Virus record (IMG/VR): IMGVR_UViG_3300009408_000012
Coordinates: 1 to 42,136 of that record
Strand: one strand, 5' to 3'
DNA length: 42,136 nt
From: a virus
Below, piece by piece: positions 17,513-35,759 of this stretch. Under the pieces are notes generated by a model. It was not told where the DNA came from. It did not search any database and worked only from the letters and a program-made list of their open reading frames with translations. Positions within the stretch are counted from its first letter, which is position 1. Each line of letters starts with the position of its first letter. Made by a program: the position numbers and the translations under genes.

Positions 17513-18244
17513 TTAGCAGTCCGTCCAAAAGAGAATGGCGTTAATGTCAGTACCTGCGCCGTCTTGGCTGGCCTCGCGCCAATGCTTGATGCGAGCATTT
17601 TCTGTGTCACCTAAGTTGCGCATGTCGTCCTGGATGTCCGCCCGTATCAAGGCTAGGGCTTCCTGCTTCTTGATGCTTGCCCGGTCGTCATTCTCTCGGT
17701 CAAGAGCTACAGCTTTGATGTACTCAATGTAACTCTCTTGGTAGCGAAAAGGGATGCTCGGTCTCTCTGAGAGAGCCGTAGGCACTGCGGGGCTAATTTT
17801 GCCGTCAATCTTAAGGGTGTCATTCTGAAACGTTGGTGGCCAGATTATGATGCTATTCTCTCCGCTGCCTTCAGACCACACTTGCGGGTAAGAGGTAGAT
17901 TCGCCGTCGTCCGTCTCGGGATCTAGCCGCCTGACTTGCGTGGTGTCTAACCGCTTGAGCGTTAAGCTAGCCGCTGGAGAGAAAATAGTCTCTACATTAG
18001 TTATGGGCATATAGAAGCCGATATTGCCTACAGACAGTGCGTACTCAGACGTGCCGTTAGTGACGGTCAGGGACAAACCTTGCTTGTAGAGGAATGACCA
18101 GTCGTGCGCTTTGCAGAATCGGAATTCAGCCAAGCTTATAGTCTCTTCTATATATGTAGCAAAGTCGGTGCTAGTATTTCCTATGTAAGAAACAACTCGA
18201 TCAATAATTTCTTGGTAGGTAAAACCACCAGCGTTAGTTATCAT
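17513..18244 (-). CDS. Head-tail adaptor (tail tubular protein A-like)
   Basis: 243 aa. It begins with helices (TYQEIIDRVVSYIG, then EETISLAEFRFCKAHDWSFLYK), has a beta insertion (LTVTNGTSEYAL) and ends with long helices (YQESYIEYIKAVALDREND). This is the pattern of the phage adaptor protein family (P22 gp4, T7 gp11) that docks under the portal. It lies between the head genes and the nozzle, as expected, and overlaps the preceding 152-aa gene by 4 nt. Confidence 0.78.
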   Translation of the reverse strand: MITNAGGFTYQEIIDRVVSYIGNTSTDFATYIEETISLAEFRFCKAHDWSFLYKQGLSLTVTNGTSEYALSVGNIGFYMPITNVETIFSPAASLTLKRLDTTQVRRLDPETDDGESTSYPQVWSEGSGENSIIIWPPTFQNDTLKIDGKISPAVPTALSERPSIPFRYQESYIEYIKAVALDRENDDRASIKKQEALALIRADIQDDMRNLGDTENARIKHWREASQDGAGTDINAILFWTDC

Positions 18245-21220: not shown

Positions 21221-23086
21221 TTACTGAGTTGGAAATCCCGGTCCCTGAGCATTAGGCTGAGGGGCACCTTGTCCAGCTGCTGCATTAGCTGCCTGTTCGG
21301 CTGCTAGCGCTCGCTGCTGCATAGCTTCTCTCTCTTCTTCTGTGCGCACGTATCTAGTCTGCTTGTTGCCTACTAGAGGACGTAGCATATCCATAGCTAA
21401 AGCATCCATCTTAATACTACCTGGCTGAGAGGCTTCCAAAGCCTGAACAAACTGAGCTACTGACTGCATCTTAGCTAGCTGACCCTGCGGCCCTCCAGTC
21501 TCTAGGTCTGTCTTAGCCTTGTAGTCAAACTTTCTAAAGAAAGAGTCTGTAGGAAGAATCGTAAAAGGGTTCTGCGAATTGGGGTCAGTAAGTTTAACCC
21601 ACTGGTCGTCCGTAACAAACTGCCTGTTGGTCATCATCATTATCCAAGCCATCTCTCTAAAGAACAACTCCGAAAGCAGTTGAGCCTTAAGTCCCACGCG
21701 CGTATTAGCAATATTCTGAATGAACTCTACGCCCGTAGCACTTCGACCAAAAGTTTTAGCAAACTGAGGAAGCTGAGGAGTAGAAGTGACAGACGAAGTT
21801 GCAGAGTTGATATCCGCTTGTAAGAAGCCCATCTCTTGCGAGCTTCCAATAGACGGGTCCTGAACCGGTAGAGGTTTGATACCATTTACGTCATTACTCC
21901 AAACCACTCCATTAGGCCTACTGTACAGGTTACTGCGATTAATCCCAGCAGCCCGATCCACAACGTACATAGGGTTAACAGACAAATTGATGTTATCCAA
22001 CCTCGCATTTCGGATAGTGTTCGCTTCTTTAATGAGGGGCCTGACTGCGAGCAGTTCAGGTACACCATAAAACTCGTTATCACGAACATAGTTAGGGCAA
22101 GCAACAAAAGGTTTAAACTTATAGTCGTAAAAGTTTCGCTCGTCTCTAATGAGTACGTCTCCATTTGCAAGTGTGATGAGGTACTCTTCAAATTTTCCGT
22201 CACCTTTAGGGTCCCAAAGTCCCCAGTATTCCCAGATCTCAATCTTGCCACCATCTTTGGCTCCACGGTCGTTATCGTTTAGCCGCTCGAAATCGTCTTT
22301 GAACTCGTCTGAGTAATATGGTGCTTGCCAGGCATCAGCACCTTTGTCTGACATAGACCTCTTCAGTAGGTCTAGGTTCTTGTATAAGCCAGAACTCTTA
22401 AGTTGCTGTCTAGTCTTAAACATCCTATGTACACATCCGCGCATGGCCTGTATGTCAGTAGACTTAGCACTCCAGTCTGGATAGAAATCGTGGATAGCTA
22501 TAATCTCTAAATCTGGCCCATCGTAGGTTACTTCTAGTACGTCACGCTTCTGCACGGTAGTTTCGCCCGTCTCAGGGTCTACTACACTAGACCTACGCAC
22601 CGTGTTTACCTCTTTAAATCGGTAAGGCACTTTAGCAATGCCGGTGCCGTCAATAAGCATAGACTTAATGAAGGCCGTAAACTTAGGAACAAACTTCATA
22701 TTGCGCATCTGCCAAGAGAAGAAGTCCGTCATAGGGTCTTCAAAAGGCTGGTCATTAATCTCTTGCCCCTCGAATTTGATTATCTCGTCGTCGCCCGTAA
22801 ATATGTTAGTAATCTGAGGAACCTGATTCTCGATAATAGTAAAGCCAAAAGGTAGTCTAAGGTTAGCACGCTGAATCATAGAGCGCCCCGTAGGAGCCCA
22901 ATTCTCATACATCTCTCTAGAGTCTTTAGCATTATCTAGGTGATTATCTCTGTAGCTAGCACTGCGATCCATGAACCTACGCACCATACTAATAGCACGC
23001 CGGTCTCTAACCATGCTTTTTAGCTGATCCTTGGTCTGAGGCGCTCTCTCAAAAGGGTCACTACCATTTCCTGATCTAATAGCCAT
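21221..23086 (-). CDS. Portal protein
   Basis: 621 aa. It starts with a helical, Arg-rich region (DRRAISMVRRFMDRSASYRDN). ENWAPTGRSMIQRANLRLP and a membrane-like helix come next, then a wing-type beta region and a C-terminal helical segment with an Ala/Gln/Pro-rich tail (AAEQAANAAAGQ). Length and layout fit podovirus portals, the dodecameric ring through which DNA is packaged and ejected. It directly follows the large terminase gene (8-nt gap), the usual motor-portal pair. Confidence 0.85.
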   Translation of the reverse strand: MAIRSGNGSDPFERAPQTKDQLKSMVRDRRAISMVRRFMDRSASYRDNHLDNAKDSREMYENWAPTGRSMIQRANLRLPFGFTIIENQVPQITNIFTGDDEIIKFEGQEINDQPFEDPMTDFFSWQMRNMKFVPKFTAFIKSMLIDGTGIAKVPYRFKEVNTVRRSSVVDPETGETTVQKRDVLEVTYDGPDLEIIAIHDFYPDWSAKSTDIQAMRGCVHRMFKTRQQLKSSGLYKNLDLLKRSMSDKGADAWQAPYYSDEFKDDFERLNDNDRGAKDGGKIEIWEYWGLWDPKGDGKFEEYLITLANGDVLIRDERNFYDYKFKPFVACPNYVRDNEFYGVPELLAVRPLIKEANTIRNARLDNINLSVNPMYVVDRAAGINRSNLYSRPNGVVWSNDVNGIKPLPVQDPSIGSSQEMGFLQADINSATSSVTSTPQLPQFAKTFGRSATGVEFIQNIANTRVGLKAQLLSELFFREMAWIMMMTNRQFVTDDQWVKLTDPNSQNPFTILPTDSFFRKFDYKAKTDLETGGPQGQLAKMQSVAQFVQALEASQPGSIKMDALAMDMLRPLVGNKQTRYVRTEEEREAMQQRALAAEQAANAAAGQGAPQPNAQGPGFPTQ

Positions 23087-23094
23087 TAATTCTC

Positions 23095-24804
23095 CTAGCA
23101 GGCAAATCCTGTATCACGATCTATATCCGAATTGGATGGCGAGTAGTCCTGCTCTTCTTGGTCAGAAGGACTTGGACGCATACGGTCCATCTCTTCGGTT
23201 AAAGAAGCAGCCATAACTAAATCGTCGTGTGCTCCAGGTGCCGCTTCTCTCCGCACGTTATTTCCTTTTTTGCTGGCAATACTCATATAGGTAGTCATTT
23301 CCTGTATAAGGTCTCTATCTAAAACCAGGATGTCACCTTGCCTAGCACTATTCTTAAAATTCTCTGTCACGATCAGCTTGTTGTTGGACGTCGTCAAGTA
23401 GCCCAACTTGTGCGTAGGCTTCATAGTCAACTCGTCAATAACCTTACGCTTGTATAAGTTAGAGTATTTTAACTCTTTGAGTACGTGAAGCACTACAGCT
23501 CCGTGGTTGTTAGCCTCAACGCATATATAAGCTTTGTTGTAATACCTAGCTAGCCTGTACAACTCGTGAGCAAATTCGCTAGGAGATAGATCGCACCATA
23601 TACGAGCGACGAGTCGCCCCGTCTCCTGGTCTTTGACGTAAGCTGCTCCTTTATCTCGACCAACTCCTCCAGCTGGATCAGCTCCCATTACATAGGTCTT
23701 AGAAGGATTGGGTGTCTCCCAAACAGATACTACACCCTTCTCGTCAGAGTAAAACTTAGATTTTCCACCATCTGTGACTAGGTAACCAACCTTTAAGGGG
23801 GAGCGGCAGTGGGCGCTCTGTGTCTTAATGATTGACTTTCCAAATACCGAGTTGGAGCCAGACATGAAGCAATCGATGTCGTTCGTCGGATACTCATTCT
23901 CAAAGCGTTCGCTGTCTCCCACGCAGTTGGCCTCTACGCACCACCGGCGCCAAAGAACGTGGTGTTCCTTGATCTGCTCTGGGTAGTCGTGAATCAGGCT
24001 CTTCTCGTAAGCCGTAAATTCGAAGTCGGGCGGTTTCACCCAGTCGTCTGGCATTTCTGGGTACGCCTCGTGCCAGGGTATGAAAAATCCTTTGTACGGT
24101 GCCAAGCTGCCCATCGACCGGTGCAGCGTCCACAGCCGGTAGAAGTCTCCCCCTTGACCTGCTGCAGTTGACTCCAGCGTAATCTCTCCATTTACAGGAA
24201 CTCCCTGAAGGGAACCTACTAAACGGTCGTCGTCTATTCTAGATGCTTCAGATACGTGGAGGAAATTTACTGTCTTTCCTCGGAAGTCAAACATGACTCG
24301 AATGCTAGATTCAAGAGGGTTTCCAAGTCCGTCACTCTCGAATGCCAATGTTGAGGAACTTGACTGCTTGGCGACAGGATTGTAAAGGTGCCCCCAATCT
24401 CTAGTGAACCAGTTGTATGAAAACTTTGTGATATCATTGAATATCGTTTCCACAGTTCGCTGCAAGTGACACAATATCCCCGCTCTCGTGTTCGGTTCCC
24501 ATAAGGCATAATCTAACCCTCTAATGCAGTTAAGCGTCGTAAATCCAATCTGCCTGCACTTTAAAATGATATTTCTCTTGGCTTTGTACTCAGTGTACTT
24601 AGCCTGCCCGCTATTCATGTGCAGGAACGTAGCCTTTTTAGTCAACTTGTCCTGGATGCGGTAGAGATTCTTAACGCGCTCGTCGTGCCCTAAGGCAATC
24701 ATCTCTGCCTTGAATGCGTGTTTTGCAGCTAACTCTCCGTCACTCTCAAATACTTCGAGTACTCGGTCGTAGGCCGTCTTAAACTTTTTCGTGTAGTGAG
24801 GCAA
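23095..24804 (-). CDS. terL: Terminase large subunit
   Basis: 569 aa. The ATPase domain has Walker A KCRQIGFTT (82-90), Walker B NFLHVSEA with Glu186, and coupling motif ESTAAGQGG (211-219). The RNase H-like nuclease domain has Asp376 (GADPAGG), Glu430 (CVEANNHG) and Asp527/Asp528 (GAHDDLVMA). This is the motor that pumps DNA through the portal and cuts genome-length units. The matching small subunit is far away at 39181-39573 in a different operon. Confidence 0.95.
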   Translation of the reverse strand: MPHYTKKFKTAYDRVLEVFESDGELAAKHAFKAEMIALGHDERVKNLYRIQDKLTKKATFLHMNSGQAKYTEYKAKRNIILKCRQIGFTTLNCIRGLDYALWEPNTRAGILCHLQRTVETIFNDITKFSYNWFTRDWGHLYNPVAKQSSSSTLAFESDGLGNPLESSIRVMFDFRGKTVNFLHVSEASRIDDDRLVGSLQGVPVNGEITLESTAAGQGGDFYRLWTLHRSMGSLAPYKGFFIPWHEAYPEMPDDWVKPPDFEFTAYEKSLIHDYPEQIKEHHVLWRRWCVEANCVGDSERFENEYPTNDIDCFMSGSNSVFGKSIIKTQSAHCRSPLKVGYLVTDGGKSKFYSDEKGVVSVWETPNPSKTYVMGADPAGGVGRDKGAAYVKDQETGRLVARIWCDLSPSEFAHELYRLARYYNKAYICVEANNHGAVVLHVLKELKYSNLYKRKVIDELTMKPTHKLGYLTTSNNKLIVTENFKNSARQGDILVLDRDLIQEMTTYMSIASKKGNNVRREAAPGAHDDLVMAASLTEEMDRMRPSPSDQEEQDYSPSNSDIDRDTGFAC

Positions 24805-27391: not shown

Positions 27392-30058
27392 CTAAGCAAA
27401 CGCTAACTGAGACACACCGTACATGTTAGTACCGTCTGAAACAAAAGTAAGGATATCTATAGAGCTGGCTGCAGTACTCAAAGTAGGTGCGGTTCCGCCT
27501 GGCCACTTATATACTGTGCCATACACTAAAGTTCTAGACCCGGTAGCATCTTGTTTTACTATTACTGTGTATGATGCTCCTGCTTTCAAATTCGTGGGGT
27601 TATCTAAAGTTCTATTGCCTGCTAAGGTAACTGTTGAAGCTTGGTTTAGAGTCAAGTCCCAAGCAATGTTAGCTGCATCTGTAAGAGTGGTCTCAGCAAA
27701 GTATGCTTGACCTTTAAATTTAAAACTATAATCCGCTGAAGAGTCGTTAAATATTGCATCCGAAGTCTCGTTAAACTTAACCCTATCTACCAGAGCGTTT
27801 AAAGAGCTACCAGTAGATCCAGCAGGAGCTGTCTTAATAGTTATTGCTCCTCCTGCTCCGGTTCCTGTACCTCTTCCTCCAGTAATACTTAAACTTGCAC
27901 CACCTATATCAGTACCCGACCCTCCAGTACCGTTGTAAGACACTGCGTCGGTACCTGCAGATGCAGAAGTAACACCTGTCCCTAAATATACATCTTTAAT
28001 GGGAGCTACAGAACTACCTACTAAAAACTGATTAGTTGCTGTACTGGTGGCGCTTTGGCCTATAACAACGCAGGCCGTATGTGTTGCAGAGGCTGAGGTG
28101 CCTCCTATAGCTATACAGTAGGTAGCAGAGGCAATGCTGTCAGTACCTACTGCAAATGTGTTTGATGCAGAGGCTGTAGCAGACTTTCCTAAAGCTACGC
28201 TAGAAGATCCAGATGCTGAGGAACTTTTACCTATAGCTGTAGATGGGTTGGAACTAGCAGAAGCACTAACGCCCAATGCAGTTGAGTCGCTGCTAGAAGC
28301 ACTAGAAAAACCACCCAAAGCGGTTGACGAACTTCCTGCAGAAGAGGCAGATATACCTACAGCAAGGGAGTTACTTCCTACTGCGGATGTTCCTACCCCA
28401 AACTTCTCAGATGACGTTCCTAATCCAGGAGAACTTATAACAGAGGTAGTAACGGTAGTAGCAATGTCGCCAATAAACGAAGCGTCGCCCGTTGTCTTAG
28501 TTATACTTAAAAGGATATTTCCAGAGTTTAAATCACTAGCATCTGTAAGTTTAAATAAATCAGAGTCAGAGTTGTCAACTCCTAAAGACATAGAGGTTGT
28601 AGCTGCTGTGTCGTTCGTTCTAAAATTAATATAAGGATCGCCACTAGAGTCTCCTCCAGCTTCTAATGTTATAGAAGCATGTGATCCTACATTAGTATTA
28701 TCGCTGTTCTCAATAATTACCTGTACTGCACTACCCACTAAAGAATTACTAGTAGTAATATTGCCAGAATCGTCTACGGTAGTTGTAGATGTATTCTGAA
28801 TTAATTTTCCAGTTGTAGAGTCAAATCTTGCTATAGCGTTATCTGTTGAACTTCCAGGTCCAACTACATCCCCTGCACCACCTAACAGAGTCTCAGTTCC
28901 AGCATCATCGATCTGGTATATACCGCCAGACTTGCCGTAAATTTTCCAAGTACCGGTAACTGGCGTAGTGGGAGCTACAGACCGCTCTCCAAACTGTACG
29001 GTTTTTTCGTCACCTTTTATTACTATGTCAGTACCAACGGTACAGGTTCCATCCGTATCAATAGGACCGTCAAAATGGTTAGCAGAGGAAGCACCACTTT
29101 GCCAAATACCATATTGGTTGGCAATAGTGCCAGTGCCAATATCATTTAAATATAGACCGTAAGAAGTAGTTACAGTGGAGCTTGCGTTAGAAATTCCATA
29201 TAGTATGTTTGCGCCGTAGAGAGTTGTTACTGTGGAGGCAGCAGTTCCAAATCCGTTAATATCCGCACCGTATACGCGATCTATTGACCCGGTTCCTACT
29301 AACTCAGCTGCTGAAGAGAACCCAATAGCCATCCCTGAATTAGTTATTCCACTGTTTACAGTGTTGGTTAAGTAACTCCACCAACCGTAGCGTTTAAATA
29401 CGTGGTTAACTGTGTCGGTTACGTTTACGGTATTCTGGATACCTTCGATAATCTGCGTGTTGTCGGTTATAGTGTGTGCTATCTGAAGCTTGCCGCCTGC
29501 ATCTGGGGTGGCAGTTCCGATACCTACAGTGCTGTTGGAAGCATCTACAAAAAGGGTGGTAGTGTCTACTGTCAAATCACTAGGCATAGTGACGTTGTCT
29601 GAGTCGTCGACTAGAACACCGGTATTCTCTAGCTCGTGTGTGATGCCACTCCAGCGCGCTACAGCGTTGTCTGTGACCGCTTCAGCGGCTAGAGCTAGGG
29701 GTAGCTGACCCGTAGAGCCAGCCGTCCAGTAGTCGCCCGCCTCGTCCCAAAGAAGCCTAGCGTTGGTGCTAGTCCCTCTCTCGACTTCTAGGCCTGCATT
29801 CTCAGTAGGGGTTCCCGTAACGTCATCGTTAAGCATGATGATGTTGTCGCCCGTCGTGATGGTCGTAGAGGCTATTAGGGTGGTTACTGTGAGCGAGGCT
29901 ACGCCCGTAATGTTATCCGAGTCATCAATTATGACGCCTGAGTTTTGGATAATCTTGCCCGTAACTCCGTCAAAACGAGCTACAGCATTATCCGTAGCCG
30001 ACCCGGGACCTTGCACGTCCGTGGCCGCTACTGGGCTGAATCCGACAATAAATGCCAT
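27392..30058 (-). CDS. Large tail fibre with YadA-like head repeats
   Basis: 888 aa. Three copies of a motif like TDNAVARFDG-TGK-IIQN-DDSDN occur at about residues 20-50, 130-160 and 410-440. Residues about 560-680 are 14-residue repeats of the YadA/Hep_Hag type (SSSTALGGFSSASS, SNPSTAIGKSSSAS), which form a left-handed beta-roll trimer in adhesins. The C-terminus has DLTLNQASTVTLAGNRTL and YTVIVKQDATGSRTL, a common phage fibre end. Probably the main receptor-binding fibre. It is the first large gene of the minus-strand late block. Confidence 0.85.
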   Translation of the reverse strand: MAFIVGFSPVAATDVQGPGSATDNAVARFDGVTGKIIQNSGVIIDDSDNITGVASLTVTTLIASTTITTGDNIIMLNDDVTGTPTENAGLEVERGTSTNARLLWDEAGDYWTAGSTGQLPLALAAEAVTDNAVARWSGITHELENTGVLVDDSDNVTMPSDLTVDTTTLFVDASNSTVGIGTATPDAGGKLQIAHTITDNTQIIEGIQNTVNVTDTVNHVFKRYGWWSYLTNTVNSGITNSGMAIGFSSAAELVGTGSIDRVYGADINGFGTAASTVTTLYGANILYGISNASSTVTTSYGLYLNDIGTGTIANQYGIWQSGASSANHFDGPIDTDGTCTVGTDIVIKGDEKTVQFGERSVAPTTPVTGTWKIYGKSGGIYQIDDAGTETLLGGAGDVVGPGSSTDNAIARFDSTTGKLIQNTSTTTVDDSGNITTSNSLVGSAVQVIIENSDNTNVGSHASITLEAGGDSSGDPYINFRTNDTAATTSMSLGVDNSDSDLFKLTDASDLNSGNILLSITKTTGDASFIGDIATTVTTSVISSPGLGTSSEKFGVGTSAVGSNSLAVGISASSAGSSSTALGGFSSASSSDSTALGVSASASSNPSTAIGKSSSASGSSSVALGKSATASASNTFAVGTDSIASATYCIAIGGTSASATHTACVVIGQSATSTATNQFLVGSSVAPIKDVYLGTGVTSASAGTDAVSYNGTGGSGTDIGGASLSITGGRGTGTGAGGAITIKTAPAGSTGSSLNALVDRVKFNETSDAIFNDSSADYSFKFKGQAYFAETTLTDAANIAWDLTLNQASTVTLAGNRTLDNPTNLKAGASYTVIVKQDATGSRTLVYGTVYKWPGGTAPTLSTAASSIDILTFVSDGTNMYGVSQLAFA

Positions 30059-30067
30059 GACTTAAAC

Positions 30068-30232
30068 CTACTTGTTTCGGCTGTTTACTTTGTCCGTATC
30101 TTGAGAATTGAACGCTCCGTCAGCCACGCTTTTCTTTCGGGGGGAGGGGCCTTGGTCCTTGTCCTTGGAGGCGCCTTTGCCGTAGCCGCTTACATCTCTA
30201 GGTTTCATATCATTGTTTACATTTTTACTCAT
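30068..30232 (-). CDS. Tiny charged protein, 54 aa
   Basis: ATG at 30232 with AAGGA 7 nt before. Hydrophilic and Lys/Asp/Asn-rich, with a basic middle (GPSPRKKSV) and no hydrophobic core, so probably disordered or nucleic-acid-binding. It is third in a run of three tiny basic genes between the structured RNA and the fibre gene. No family recognised. Confidence 0.6.
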   Translation of the reverse strand: MSKNVNNDMKPRDVSGYGKGASKDKDQGPSPRKKSVADGAFNSQDTDKVNSRNK

Positions 30233-30241
30233 AGCGTATCC

Positions 30242-30376
30242 TTACTTCTTTGCTTTGGGCTTTTTTCTCTTAAAGCCTGCAGTGAATTGCTTGACCTTCT
30301 TAGGGTCTAATTTGGGTCCTTTTGCGCTTCCGCCTTTGCGGCCTTTAGCGGCTTCTTTCTTAGTGTGAAATGGCAC
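30242..30376 (-). CDS. Tiny Lys-rich protein, 44 aa
   Basis: GTG at 30376 with AAGGAG at 30387-30382 (minus). Of 44 residues, about 17 are Lys or Arg (KGRKGGSAKGPKLDPKKVK, FKRKKPKAKK), giving a very high positive charge. Probably binds nucleic acid. It resembles the small basic virion or DNA-condensing proteins of some phages in composition only. Confidence 0.6.
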   Translation of the reverse strand: MPFHTKKEAAKGRKGGSAKGPKLDPKKVKQFTAGFKRKKPKAKK

Positions 30377-30434
30377 GTGCTCTCCTTAGGTTCGACCGCT
30401 TAAGGGTCTGGTTTCTATCTAGGTGGCCTTGCGG

Positions 30435-30575
30435 CTACTTTTTTGGGCGGCGTTTCTTGGCCTTCTTGGGCAAGCTGACGATCGGGAAGCCTTTGCTGTT
30501 CTTGCGTCCGCGGTCGGCGGGGCTGGTCAGCGGGCGGTCTAAAATTATGGGGCGCGTCTTTTTCTTCTTAGGCAT
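30435..30575 (-). CDS. Tiny basic protein, 46 aa, first gene of the late block
   Basis: ATG at 30575 with a strong AAAGGAGG site. The ends are Lys/Arg-rich (MPKKKKTRP, KKAKKRRPKK) with a short hydrophobic centre (GFPIVSL). It is the first coding gene downstream of the putative large RNA on the same strand, so the RNA may also be its 5' leader. Confidence 0.6.
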   Translation of the reverse strand: MPKKKKTRPIILDRPLTSPADRGRKNSKGFPIVSLPKKAKKRRPKK

Positions 30576-30589
30576 GTAGCCTCCTTTAA

Positions 30590-31345
30590 AATCTGCCCGT
30601 CTGCCCGGACTGCCTCACCACTGCCCGTTTTGCGCGGACTTCCTGGGAACTGCCGTTCCTTTGAGCAGGTGACGCTCACGATGTGGGGTTGTTCTAAATT
30701 TTTTGCCAGGCAAGGAATTACACCCTGCGTCCTACGTCGCTTAGACGCATGCTCTAATGCACCGACTTTACGCTGTCACCACTTCTGAGCTACTGGCATA
30801 CTTGGCCAGGCCCGCCGCTCCCCCCTTGGGGCCCTAGGCTGCAAATCTGCGAGAAGTGCTACCTAGGGGCCTAAAACTTTTAGTCTCTCTCCGGCTTTCT
30901 GGTGATCATCCGCACGTATATTGCGTGGATCTCCCGGGAGCCGTAATTACTTTTAAAACTCTTTTTTGGCTGCTCTTCCATCTTTGCTCCTATTGTAGAT
31001 ACAGCTCGGACTATGTGGAATGCTTTAAGGGGGAGCGGGCGGTGTTTCCAAACGCTCTAGCCCTCAAGGTTCTTATGTGGAGCTTGTGGGCTCCCAGGGG
31101 CAAAGCCCCTCCACCTAGCCTCGCTGCTGGCCTTGTCGACTCTGTCCCTCTTTCGAGTTCCACAATTTGAGTCAAATTGTACCGTTAGCTTCAGTAGTAT
31201 TCAGCCGGGGTGCGGTTCAGGCCTTGACTGGTTTTGAGGTGCCAGCTGGCAGGTCTATCATTTCCTCGAACCCCTTGTAGGTGGTGCTTTTCAGCGTTCG
31301 GGCCGGTCTCGTTTCAAGAGTGAGGCGCAAGAACCCAACCTACAT
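30590..31345 (-). ncRNA. Putative large structured non-coding RNA
   Basis: About 760 nt without any credible reading frame on either strand, in a genome where genes otherwise touch or overlap. A consensus promoter (31351-31379, minus) ends right before it. Minus-strand stems include 7-bp ACAATTT/AAATTGT (31162-31180), AGGGGC/GCCCCT with triloop (31096-31110), TGCCAGCTGGCA (31240-31251), CCCTAGG/CCTAGGG (30832-30838 with 30862-30868) and CTGGC/GCCAG (30793-30809). Many purine-rich junctions suit tertiary contacts. The 3' end has repeated GGCAG elements before the AAAGGAGG of the first tiny gene. It resembles in size and style the giant phage RNAs such as GOLLD or ROOL, but class membership was not tested. 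It could instead be a very long leader. Confidence 0.6.
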
Positions 31346-31350
31346 CTACT

Positions 31351-31379
31351 ACTCTATCATGCTTTTGTCGATTTGTCAA
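31351..31379 (-). promoter_or_regulatory. Sigma-70-type promoter for the RNA and late block
   Basis: Minus strand TTGACA (31379-31374), 17-bp spacer, TAGAGT (31356-31351). An A/T-rich tract lies directly upstream (31381-31440), like an UP element. Transcription would start near 31345 and run into the putative structured RNA and then the late genes. Confidence 0.75.
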
Positions 31380-31380
31380 G

Positions 31381-31560
31381 CTTTTTTTTCAATTATTTTG
31401 CATTTTTTTTGCTCTATTTTCTAAGTGGCTGAAATTATAGGTTTTCTCAGTTTGGCGAGTTTTGTATTTTGCTCAATTTTTAGCTGATATGCACTAGAGT
31501 CCCCCATATATATCCTTGGGGGGGCAGGGCATGATTGGTGCTCGCCCCTCCAGGGGTTGG
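31381..31560. other. Gene-free A/T-rich tract and two G/C hairpins
   Basis: 31381-31440 is mostly A/T, with two runs of eight T. Two hairpins follow: CCCCC (31501-31505) with GGGGG (31518-31524), loop about 12 and A/T-rich; and CCCCT (31545-31549) with AGGGG (31552-31556). No credible gene. It separates the sigma-70 promoter from the sigma-54 cluster. An origin or a transcription insulator is possible, but nothing decides. Confidence 0.5.
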
Positions 31561-31571
31561 GGTGCACTGCA

Positions 31572-31588
31572 TTGGCATCATACTTGCA
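31572..31588 (+). promoter_or_regulatory. Near-consensus sigma-54 site, plus strand
   Basis: TTGGCAT-N5-TTGCA with GG and GC separated by exactly 10 nt, one mismatch in the -24 box (T for C). It lies about 180 bp upstream of the perfect plus-strand site and may be a secondary or decoy site. Confidence 0.5.
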
Positions 31589-31590
31589 GT

Positions 31591-31607
31591 AGCACAGCAC
31601 GTGCCAA
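31591..31607 (-). promoter_or_regulatory. Near-consensus sigma-54 site, minus strand
   Basis: Minus strand TTGGCACG-N4-GTGCT; the -24 box is perfect, and the -12 box has G for the first T but keeps GC at 10-nt spacing. It points toward the large RNA and late genes. Confidence 0.45.
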
Positions 31608-31634
31608 GATATACGTAGGTGGAGCAGCGTGCCC

Positions 31635-31652
31635 ATGCAACAATCGTGCCAA
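31635..31652 (-). promoter_or_regulatory. Consensus sigma-54 promoter, minus strand
   Basis: Minus strand TTGGCACG-ATTG-TTGCAT, a full match to the -24/-12 consensus with correct GG-GC spacing. Its start point would be near 31624, directing transcription leftward toward the putative RNA and late block. It diverges from the site at 31750-31767. Confidence 0.75.
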
Positions 31653-31749
31653 CTTAGCTGTACAATCGTTGGTCACCAATCGACCAGAAGTTCGACAGCA
31701 TCTTCTTGGCCAAAATTGTACGAGTGCTGCAATTACAGCAACTTAGCAT

Positions 31750-31767
31750 TTGGCACGCCGGTTGCAT
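31750..31767 (+). promoter_or_regulatory. Consensus sigma-54 promoter for the accessory operon
   Basis: TTGGCACG-CCGG-TTGCAT matches the -24/-12 consensus at every conserved base with 10 nt between GG and GC. Expected start near 31776, 66 nt before the ATG at 31842. Dyads TTGGT-C-ACCAA (31669-31679) and TGCTG-N6-CAGCA (31725-31740) lie upstream and could bind an enhancer protein or IHF-like factor. Confidence 0.8.
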
Positions 31768-31841
31768 GTAAATCAAGTAGGCACAAATGCCGACTAATCC
31801 AAGCTAAGCCAAGTAGGCCCGCTTAACCCAGGAGATAGACC

Positions 31842-32144
31842 ATGTCAGTAACAGTAACTACCCAAGAGAACCAAACGCAAGACGCAATGGCCCAAGTAAT
31901 CGCCGAGCTTAAGGCAGAGAATGCTAAGCTTAAGGCTAAGAAGGCTAAGGGGCTCAGCCTAAAGGTTAGCGCCAAGGGCGGGCTCAGCATCTACGGGATG
32001 GGCCGCTTCCCGGTCACACTCTACAAGAGCCAGTGGACGAAGCTACTCGCTGCCACTGAAGAGATCAAGACATTCCTCAAGGACAACGACGCCGAGCTGA
32101 AAGATAAGGGGGACGCGGCCAAAGTTGCAGCTAAGGCAGCTTAG
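31842..32144 (+). CDS. Conserved phage hypothetical protein, 100 aa
   Basis: ATG at 31842 after AGGAGA. An N-terminal helical coiled-coil part (IAELKAENAKLKAKKAKG) is followed by a core LSIYGMGRFPVTLYKSQWTKLL and a Lys/Ala helix tail. I recall a core of this type (GxGRFPVTLY-QW) in many marine and freshwater phage proteins of unknown function, but could not check. It is the first gene of the sigma-54 operon, followed by a strong spacer hairpin. Confidence 0.75.
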   Translation: MSVTVTTQENQTQDAMAQVIAELKAENAKLKAKKAKGLSLKVSAKGGLSIYGMGRFPVTLYKSQWTKLLAATEEIKTFLKDNDAELKDKGDAAKVAAKAA

Positions 32145-33419: not shown

Positions 33420-34802
33420 ATGCCTCAAAGCACAGTAACCTATATAGATGATGTACCATTATATGATATAAAATACAAAACAGAACCAAAGAAACGCAAG
33501 TTTAAAAAGAAAGGAAAGACTAAAGGTAAGCTTAGAGGTGGGGGAATTCTGAAGGTTAAAGGCCTTAAGATCAAGTTCACCGATGTGACGGGCAAAGTTG
33601 CCACCGACAAGCACAACCTTGCAATCGTGCAAACTGAGAAGCTCATGAAGTCCTACAAGGAGATATCTAAAAATATTATAGAGTATGACCACGGCATAAA
33701 CAGCGTGATTCGGCGTACTCTACAGACTGCTAGAAGTAAAGCATCGTACCGTCCTGAATATCGCAATGTAACCATAAGCTATTTAGGTTTTGTGCGCAAA
33801 GCCACTATCTCTAGGAGTTTAAGTACTAAAAAGGGACTTCTTGAAGAGATTAGGTACACAGTCAAAGATGCTAGAGCAAACGCTAGAAGACCAAATACCA
33901 CAAGAAAAACACACCCAGTGTTTGGCGAGTGGTTTACTACTGGAGGAGTTAGGGACATGCCTGGCTTCTTTAGCAGGGCTTCTATAGGGTTAAAGATGAA
34001 AAGAGTGGAGGCTATTAAAAAGCCTACAACAGATGCTAAGTACGTTGGTGTAGAGCTAGAGTTCTTTAGCCCACTTGGTCGCACTGACATAAAAAAGGAA
34101 ATTGCTGAGCACAGCTTAGAGTATGTGTGCCAAGTAGTTGGGGACGGCTCACTACACGACACTGGAGGGTCACGCTGCCCTGAGTGTAGTAGCTGTGGTG
34201 AGTGTGAAGTAGATGGTGATTGCTGTACTCACTGCTCTAGTTGCGACGAAGGTCAATACAAGAATACTGACCGACTGCGGGGTAATGAGATGCGCATCTT
34301 AGATACTGAAGACAACATTGAGGAGACGGTCAAGAAAGTTACAGCAGCTATTGTAGGCTTTGGCGGTGAGGTTAACGAGCAGTGCGGCCTGCACGTTCAC
34401 TTGGATGTGCGCAACAGAGAGCCAGAGAAGGCCTATACAGCCTTAGCTAATGCTCAGAAAGCGTTATTTAAGACAGTGCCGCAGTCTAGAAGAGATAATG
34501 AGTATTGCGTTATTACTCGAAGTTCTAGGTTAAGCAACGTAGGCTCAGGGCGTTACTACGCTGTCAACCACGAATCTATTACGCAACATGGCTCAATTGA
34601 AGTTAGACTGCACGGAGGCACTCTTGATTCAGAGAAGATAAACAACTGGATTAGCTTACTCAAAATTATAATTGACACTCCGACAGAAGCGAGAGCCAGA
34701 GACAAATGGCCTGACACTGTGTCCGACTTAGCTATTGAATATAATATACCCGAGAGCTTAACCAATTATTATTTGCAGAGAGAACTAGAATTCGCTGCTT
34801 AA
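33420..34802 (+). CDS. Amidoligase (carboxylate-amine ligase fold) with inserted Cys cluster
   Basis: 460 aa. Residues 208-420 are the putative amidoligase domain: GVELEF (210-215), DGS (242-244), NEMRI (289-293), GLHVH (323-327), RYYAVN (378-383) and EVRLHGGTLD (394-403). This is the glutamine-synthetase-like COOH-NH2 ligase fold that joins an amine to a carboxylate using ATP. Between motifs sits a zinc-like cluster of eight Cys (253-275). The 200-residue N-terminus is basic (KKRKFKKKGKTKGK) and unassigned. The next gene is a class II glutamine amidotransferase, which would supply ammonia. Target unknown. Confidence 0.88.
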   Translation: MPQSTVTYIDDVPLYDIKYKTEPKKRKFKKKGKTKGKLRGGGILKVKGLKIKFTDVTGKVATDKHNLAIVQTEKLMKSYKEISKNIIEYDHGINSVIRRTLQTARSKASYRPEYRNVTISYLGFVRKATISRSLSTKKGLLEEIRYTVKDARANARRPNTTRKTHPVFGEWFTTGGVRDMPGFFSRASIGLKMKRVEAIKKPTTDAKYVGVELEFFSPLGRTDIKKEIAEHSLEYVCQVVGDGSLHDTGGSRCPECSSCGECEVDGDCCTHCSSCDEGQYKNTDRLRGNEMRILDTEDNIEETVKKVTAAIVGFGGEVNEQCGLHVHLDVRNREPEKAYTALANAQKALFKTVPQSRRDNEYCVITRSSRLSNVGSGRYYAVNHESITQHGSIEVRLHGGTLDSEKINNWISLLKIIIDTPTEARARDKWPDTVSDLAIEYNIPESLTNYYLQRELEFAA

Positions 34803-34817
34803 AGGAGACTTAAATAT

Positions 34818-35759
34818 ATGTGTAAAATTATGACGATTACAGGAATTAAGCAGCAGGACAAAGGTGACTTACTGCGCTTCTGCATGGAGGCACGTAGGCA
34901 TCTCACCGAGTACGACAAGGATGGTTTTGGCTACGCTGCAACTAATGGAACAGATATGTGGATGGAGCGCTGGTTAAACCCCGACGACTCTTTCATCTAT
35001 CGTAACCCTACCACTAAAAGCGACTTAGCGTTGATAGAAGCCTTTGAGAATAGTATCTCAACGCCTAACATCTACTCTTCTTACGGAGTGGTAGACAAGT
35101 CGCTGAACGATGCTACAACTATTACTCTACATGCTCGCATGAGTACCAACACAGTAAGCTTAGAGAATACCCACCCTTTCATCAAGGATGGTATTTCTTT
35201 AATCCACAACGGAGTGATACGCAATGCTAGCAAGTGGAAGAACACACTATCAACATGTGACAGCGAGGCATTGCTAACTAAATATATTAAAGACTGTGTG
35301 CAGTATGACCCTAGCCTAATTAAAGGCCTGTTTGAGGCAATGAATGGATACTTTGCAGTTAGCATGTTAGTACCATCTGACGACGGCTATGTCTTAGATG
35401 TATTCAAGTGCGATCAAGCTCAACTCTACTTTGCTAGAGTGCCTGAGCTAGGTGATGCTAAGGTGTGGGTAACTGACACTCAACACTTGTTAGAAGTATG
35501 TGAAAAGCTTGGATGGAGTATTCCTAAACTCTTCAGCTTTACAGAGCACACTATCGTACGGTGCGACACAGTAACCGGCGTGCCTATCTCTGTAGATAGC
35601 TTCCAAGATGACACGTTCTACTCTGGATATGACTACGGCACAGGAGAGTACAACGACGAGTATATGTATGAGGAAGGTTATTTGAGTAAAGCCGACAAAG
35701 CAGCAGAGAGGCGAGCTAAGATTGGCAGCCATATAACCAACTATCACAGAACTAGATAA
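34818..35759 (+). CDS. Class II glutamine amidotransferase
   Basis: 313 aa, beginning Met-Cys so that Cys2 becomes the N-terminal nucleophile after Met removal. Conserved pieces: TLHARMST (His105, Arg107), ENTHPF (116-121), HNG (130-132) and DSEALL (148-153), all of the Ntn-hydrolase glutaminase fold that releases ammonia from glutamine. The C-terminal 60 residues are acidic and Tyr-rich (GYDYGTGEYNDEYMYEE) with a basic end. It starts 15 nt after the amidoligase with an AAAGGAG site, so the two probably work as ligase and ammonia donor. Confidence 0.9.
   Translation: MCKIMTITGIKQQDKGDLLRFCMEARRHLTEYDKDGFGYAATNGTDMWMERWLNPDDSFIYRNPTTKSDLALIEAFENSISTPNIYSSYGVVDKSLNDATTITLHARMSTNTVSLENTHPFIKDGISLIHNGVIRNASKWKNTLSTCDSEALLTKYIKDCVQYDPSLIKGLFEAMNGYFAVSMLVPSDDGYVLDVFKCDQAQLYFARVPELGDAKVWVTDTQHLLEVCEKLGWSIPKLFSFTEHTIVRCDTVTGVPISVDSFQDDTFYSGYDYGTGEYNDEYMYEEGYLSKADKAAERRAKIGSHITNYHRTR

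Follow-up and report, generated by a model that had tools for sequence, protein, structure and literature searches.

Why would a phage carry several binding sites for the host sigma-54 RNA polymerase (E-sigma54) packed into one short noncoding stretch and pointing both ways? Once bound to a promoter, E-sigma54 remains closed and silent until it is acted on by an AAA+ activator; to our knowledge, no other form of bacterial polymerase binds its promoters and then waits in this way. The window considered here, that is, the whole 42,136-bp stretch of DNA analysed, comes from an uncultured phage and is probably a complete circular assembly, given the 22-bp terminal repeat at the ends of the record. 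It holds four sigma-54 (-24/-12) sites inside 195 bp, two of them perfect and two with a single mismatch, which a sequence-only reading of the locus had taken for diverging promoters that tie phage development to a host nutrient or stress signal.

Four sites at the junction of two gene blocks

Both perfect sites proposed by the sequence-only reading, in opposite directions, are exact, and the two near-consensus sites that it placed alongside carry one core mismatch each (Table 1). The sites follow the TGGCAC-N5-TTGC core, in which positions -25/-24 are GG and positions -13/-12 are GC; for comparison, one published sigma-54 consensus reads TGGCAC-N5-7-TTGCT (PMC12316311). As for the mismatches, T at -21 is common in phage arrays, and the change at T-15 is of a type that sigma-54 sites tolerate. 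The sites run in the order + - - + with gaps of 4, 30, and 99 nt, the first two forming a convergent pair across the 4-nt gap.

The whole window contains no further perfect two-box match, which bears out an earlier manual check; single-mismatch matches outside the cluster number two (at 18158 and 22634), and matches with two mismatches or fewer number 37, compared with 22.2 ± 5.1 in shuffled sequence. When the window is scored with a weight matrix built from other phages only, the cluster supplies four of the five top scores, and the best 200-bp cluster sum reaches 75.5, against 31.5 as the maximum of 300 dinucleotide shuffles, a comparison that had been proposed as a check on the earlier reading. 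The clustering is far beyond chance, and the identity of the four as sigma-54 sites is strongly supported. A weaker match on the + strand may, speculatively, be a decayed fifth site. Short inverted repeats lie between the two perfect sites, their length equal to chance expectation, and no Rfam family matches in the window.

Table 1. Features of the sigma-54 cluster and its surroundings, in window coordinates.
Feature	Position	Strand	Basis or remark
G-run GGGGGGG	31518..31524	+	sequence; element frequent near arrays
Candidate decayed fifth site AGGGCATGATTGGTGCTC (speculative)	31526..31543	+	matrix score only 5.9
Sigma-54 site TGGCATCATACTTGC	31573..31587	+	core C->T at -21; matrix score 18.1
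Sigma-54 site TGGCACGTGCTGTGC	31592..31606	-	core T->G at -15; matrix score 12.9
Perfect sigma-54 site TGGCACGATTGTTGC	31637..31651	-	exact match, TTGGCACG-ATTG-TTGCAT at 31652-31635; matrix score 24.3
Perfect sigma-54 site TGGCACGCCGGTTGC	31751..31765	+	exact match, TTGGCACG-CCGG-TTGCAT at 31750-31767; matrix score 20.3
100-aa ORF, first gene right of cluster	31842..32144	+	open reading frame
Amidoligase (Amidoligase_2)	33420..34802	+	Pfam E 2e-14; phrog_2443
Glutamine amidotransferase-like protein	34818..35759	+	PF13522 match under cut-off
Sigma-70-like promoter candidate facing late block	31351..31379	-	sequence; TTGACA-17-TAGAGT with TG
33-aa ORF	30880-30981	-	open reading frame
Short ORFs	30068-30232, 30242-30376, 30435-30575	-	mostly basic
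Tail fibre gene, first large gene of leftward late block	27392..30058	-	phrog_9017
Terminase large subunit	23095..24804	-	cluster lies upstream of it, the arrangement seen in other array phages
Portal protein, SU10 type; query for relatives	21221..23086	-	family match

From the layout of the flanking genes, the cluster lies at the junction of a rightward operon and a leftward late block. The + perfect site has a predicted start at 31777, followed by a 65-nt leader with a good ribosome-binding site and then by ORF 31842, the product of which has no family match; no good rightward sigma-70 promoter was found in this stretch. The - perfect site, with a predicted start at 31625, faces the late block. 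Both starts lie one base from those given earlier (31776 and 31624). Only the rightward site is oriented toward a gene at the usual distance, an arrangement that array sites as a rule do not have. The cluster occupies noncoding DNA upstream of the late/terminase block, with the terminase 7 kb away in the downstream direction, beyond the tail fibre gene. Small ORFs are also present left of the cluster, before the tail fibre gene, and the region 30068-30981 on the - strand, previously read as a putative large RNA, is at least partly coding, since it contains at least three short, mostly basic ORFs and a 33-aa ORF. Several of the short ORFs there are preceded by ribosome-binding sites. In agreement with the earlier statement that no activator was recognised, neither a sigma-54 activator (bEBP, PF00158) nor an RpoN box (PF04552) scores over the cut-off in the window.

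The same sites had also been proposed for comparison with related phages. A search with the portal protein returned 53 loci, mostly 57-64% identical, and no close relative of the phage. Perfect sites are absent from 25 portal-relative records, the amidoligase from 27, and the sigma-54 cluster from 310 kb (18 pieces) of portal-relative sequence; lone matches of comparable score do occur in related genomes. The cluster is not family-wide among the portal relatives. These relatives, which have neither the cluster nor the amidoligase, are too distant to refute the sequence-only reading.

A recurrent arrangement in viral contigs

A divergent pair of perfect sites 80-110 bp apart occurs in 36 viral-contig stretches, compared with none for a scrambled control, and many of these stretches are arrays with sites in alternating orientation. 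The three-site alternating pattern has at least 120 matches in viral contigs, compared with three in bacterial genomes totalling 257 Gb; with a spacer of 6 rather than 5 nt, no viral match is left. Collapse of redundancy yields at least 107 arrays among the matches listed, in which 525 perfect sites stand against 96 single-mismatch sites. Among the matches listed in 37 long records, about 280 sites face 4 for the backward pattern. The element appears to be widespread in phages. One of the three bacterial matches (JAIXLO010000160.1) is a 383-kb contig in a Chitinophagales MAG that bears eight sigma-54 sites, mostly tandem, and sampled genes without a Pfam match; it is possibly a misbinned jumbo phage.

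The array matrix derives from loci picked by the core motif, and the independent evidence lies in the free positions, the mismatch types, and the gap preferences. At the free positions, the matches listed have T-1 in 64%, G+6 in 70%, R+7 in 72%, and W+15 in 89%, so that the arrays listed prefer T before TGG, G and then a purine after CAC, and A/T after TTGC. Mismatches among the matches listed avoid G-24 (0), G-13 (0), G-25 (2), and T-14 (3), and are tolerated at T-15 (34), T-26 (21), and C-23 (17). Since both the free positions and the tolerated mismatches agree with sigma-54 recognition, the array sites are sigma-54 sites. Convergent neighbours among the matches listed are separated by 3-7 nt, and divergent ones by 5-10 or 16-21 nt with almost none at 11-15 nt. 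This is consistent with a constraint on the face of the DNA; helical periodicity across all pairwise distances is weak, and the divergent gaps are nonetheless clearly bimodal.

Among the matches listed, one locus, usually a long intergenic region ahead of the late/terminase block, holds the sites in most phages of 30-70 kb, and in larger phages the sites are distributed among several intergenic regions within a single module. Genes of the uncultured contigs were called naively; wherever both could be placed, the array is located upstream of the terminase gene, and in many array phages it is near terS/terL. Orientation follows no simple rule: where neighbouring genes run in one direction, 77 sites follow that direction and 92 oppose it, and sites at the ends of the arrays have no outward bias, both among the matches listed. 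G-runs occur within 150 bp of 65 of the 108 arrays among the matches listed (60%), compared with 12% of background windows, and are perhaps cos sites or parts of origins. In the flanks of several arrays (L055, L061, L118, L121, and L169), the G-run element often reads GGGGGAGGGGG and then TTGAC. A further element, GAGGGTCC followed by CACACAC, is conserved in one lineage (L055, L097, L121, L125, and L169), on the early-gene side of the array.

The window shares with the uncultured array phages (e.g., L055, L060, L061, L097, and L127) the motif and spacer rule, convergent pairs, a single noncoding region upstream of the late block, and a nearby G-run. These phages also resemble the window in that no phage activator was found, and the 36 divergent-pair viral records contain neither a bEBP over the cut-off nor an RpoN box. 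Like the array class, the window has at least three sites in 200 bp, both orientations, and a convergent pair separated by 3-7 nt, albeit with one partner mismatched. The arrays, however, comprise 3-17 tightly spaced sites, whereas the window has four with wider gaps; its cluster is a sparse, small member of a recurrent phage element.

Cultured phages and known precedents

When four array loci were compared with cultured phages by megablast, no match was obtained, and blastn with a second array (L060) gave weak partial matches only. An array query matched Pseudomonas Pakpunavirus and T5-like Vibrio phages; about 300 Vibrio records were among the matches. In T5-like Vibrio phages such as D419 (OZ195672 103219-107182), several strong sigma-54 sites directly precede the DNA transfer gene, in the midst of small genes. 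In the Pseudomonas set, Pakpunavirus and the distant phages XD2, Amme-3, UAVern, and Bitten retain both a convergent pair and a further, third site, with core bases invariant or nearly so and variable 5-nt spacers. The Pakpunavirus sites lie in early gene regions; like those of the related phages, they have apparently not been described as sigma-54 sites before. The third site is on the - strand in Kat-type phages and on the + strand in XD2, Amme-3, and UAVern, its distance of about 152 or 162 bp being unchanged. Given this flip and the lack of orientation bias in the arrays, occupancy rather than the direction of transcription seems to be selected. A sigma-70 promoter and the RNA-seq-supported ncRNA PAK_P4as16 lie between the conserved sigma-54 sites; in PAK_P4 (NC_022986 55650-55850), this ncRNA carries the sigma-70 promoter and is bracketed by the sigma-54 sites. 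PAK_P3 (NC_022970) has two strong divergent sigma-54 sites at 50797 (-) and 50946 (+), 149 bp apart, in the intergenic stretch ahead of gp81.

The window resembles these phages (Kat, PAK_P1, PAK_P4, XD2, Amme-3, UAVern, and Bitten) in two respects. The pair of Kat has a 4-nt gap, like that of the window, and most members carry a further site 151-162 bp past the pair, compared with 160 bp for the further + site of the window; Bitten has sites at both 152 and 187 bp. The window differs, however, in its extra - site 45 bp past the pair and in having no sigma-70 promoter between the sites, and the phages and their hosts are different. The other arrays lend no support to a general 150-bp spacing in common with Pakpunavirus, and the likeness may therefore be coincidence.

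Sigma-54 promoters in phages are already known from YuA, whereas the alternating arrays appear undescribed, no description of them as a phage element having been found in the largely open-access literature searched. The YuA record (NC_010116) annotates three -24/-12 late promoters with high activity, and Ceyssens et al. reportedly showed in 2008, in J Bacteriol, that the sigma-54 late promoters of this phage depend on rpoN. Like the window, YuA carries genomic -24/-12 sites without a recognised sigma factor of its own. Its sites, however, are single promoters in the late region, annotated along the direction of the genes, whereas those of the window are near-perfect, clustered, and mixed in orientation, and thus do not conform to the YuA type of late promoter. 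On the annotated + strand, the three YuA segments (38392-47312) score poorly with the array matrix (-0.4, -16.1, and -13.5), and the sites seem to deviate strongly from consensus.

A precedent of another kind comes from E. coli, in which E-sigma54 naturally represses sigma-70 promoters, and basal transcription is held off by the consensus C at position -12 (PMC4551910). As in the role proposed for the arrays, silent E-sigma54 on promoter-like DNA alters transcription by occupancy, but the E. coli cases are single chromosomal sites rather than phage arrays. Phage interference with the host sigma-54 enzyme is likewise known, by proteins rather than DNA sites: Xp10 P7 (PMC5053324) and T7 Ocr (PMC7064336) both inhibit E-sigma54.

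Docking sites, promoters, or packaging signals

The explanation that we favour, to which we would give a little less than an even chance, is that host E-sigma54 docks at the cluster with high affinity and is held there in closed complexes that stay silent, as a decoy or a roadblock. With no activator at hand, the enzyme would form stable but silent closed complexes on the array sites, and the replicating phage DNA would sequester scarce host E-sigma54; alternatively or additionally, the complexes would serve as roadblocks between transcription units, beside sigma-70 promoters. Host sigma-54 responses, including those for membrane stress, RNA repair, nitrogen, and surface genes, would be blunted as a result. 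From their anatomy, we infer that arrays in general act as occupancy sites, whether sponge, roadblock, or both. The broader proposition that many virulent phage lineages carry arrays as sponges, promoter-like sites selected for occupancy that trap host sigma-54 RNA polymerase in silent complexes and switch off host sigma-54 stress responses during infection, is put forward more tentatively still. Several features count against docking: the window has only four sites, one of them weak, and wide gaps; its two perfect sites diverge, which is also classic promoter geometry; and arrays upstream of late genes may be drivers or silencers of those genes.

That the sites are ordinary sigma-54 promoters, with transcription of the amidoligase operon from the + site and of the late block from the - site under a host nutrient or stress activator, is possible but on the whole doubtful. 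The perfect sites, the correct spacing to ORF 31842, and the high-activity promoters of YuA speak for it, and the amidoligase operon may plausibly have a genuine sigma-54 promoter, since the + site is well placed and no good rightward sigma-70 promoter is nearby. The sequence-only reading is thus partly supported, but its idea of diverging promoters that tie development to a host signal is weakened in three ways: the late block has a sigma-70 candidate of its own, arrays lack orientation bias, and the homologous third site is flipped among Pseudomonas phages. Two further points count against ordinary promoters: the space from array to gene often contains a strong sigma-70 promoter, and the YuA promoter segments score low with the array matrix. 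For the window itself, where sites are few and the outward one is well placed, a conventional amidoligase-operon promoter is nearly as likely as occupancy. The two may coexist, in that the outermost + site of a docking cluster may double as such a promoter when a host activator is active. An action confined to the locus, in which E-sigma54 closed complexes repress or insulate adjacent sigma-70 promoters and phage timing follows the free host sigma-54 enzyme, is improbable, although E. coli offers a precedent and the convergent pair of Pakpunavirus abuts the sigma-70 promoter of the ncRNA. Strong outward sigma-70 promoters are indeed enriched beside arrays (26%, compared with 3% on the inward strand, among the matches listed), but for most arrays among the matches listed the sigma-70 promoter is tens to hundreds of bases away, and arrays of nine or more sites exceed the needs of one promoter.

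We give still less credence to the idea that a phage protein binds the array for packaging (as a pac/cos site) or for replication, the resemblance to sigma-54 sites being secondary. Arrays are often 0.6-2.3 kb upstream of the terminase large subunit, and G-runs adjoin them, as they can cos/pac sites. This idea is weakened by the diversity of the terminases and by the positions of the arrays: the same motif accompanies terminases of at least six families, the distance reaches 4-13 kb in other phages and 7 kb in the window, and the motif also turns up among the early genes of Pakpunavirus and, in T5-like Vibrio phages, close to the DNA transfer gene. In addition, the motif obeys the mismatch rules of sigma-54. 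Chance, or repeats without function or selection, is scarcely credible; lone matches of this score do occur in related genomes, but the shuffle tests, the 6-nt spacer control, and the conserved cores with variable spacers across diverged phages all oppose it, and for the array class this reading is refuted statistically.

If the docking explanation is true, the arrays would let phages interfere with a stress regulon of the host through DNA alone, free of any protein, and would account for the long noncoding regions conserved in many phages. The sigma-54 enzyme would be well suited to a DNA trap because it binds promoters and then waits. The proposal is open to test, given that conserved versions exist in cultured Pseudomonas phages, that RNA-seq is available for PAK_P3 and PAK_P4, and that phage Amme-3 and P. 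putida KT2440 form a pair safe for laboratory use. Phages plausibly meet active sigma-54 responses in the host: a homologous Rtc operon is under RtcR/sigma-54 control in Salmonella and E. coli (PMC9879122), and during PAK_P3 infection the host operon encoding RtcA/RtcB rises about 80-fold (PMC4933390).
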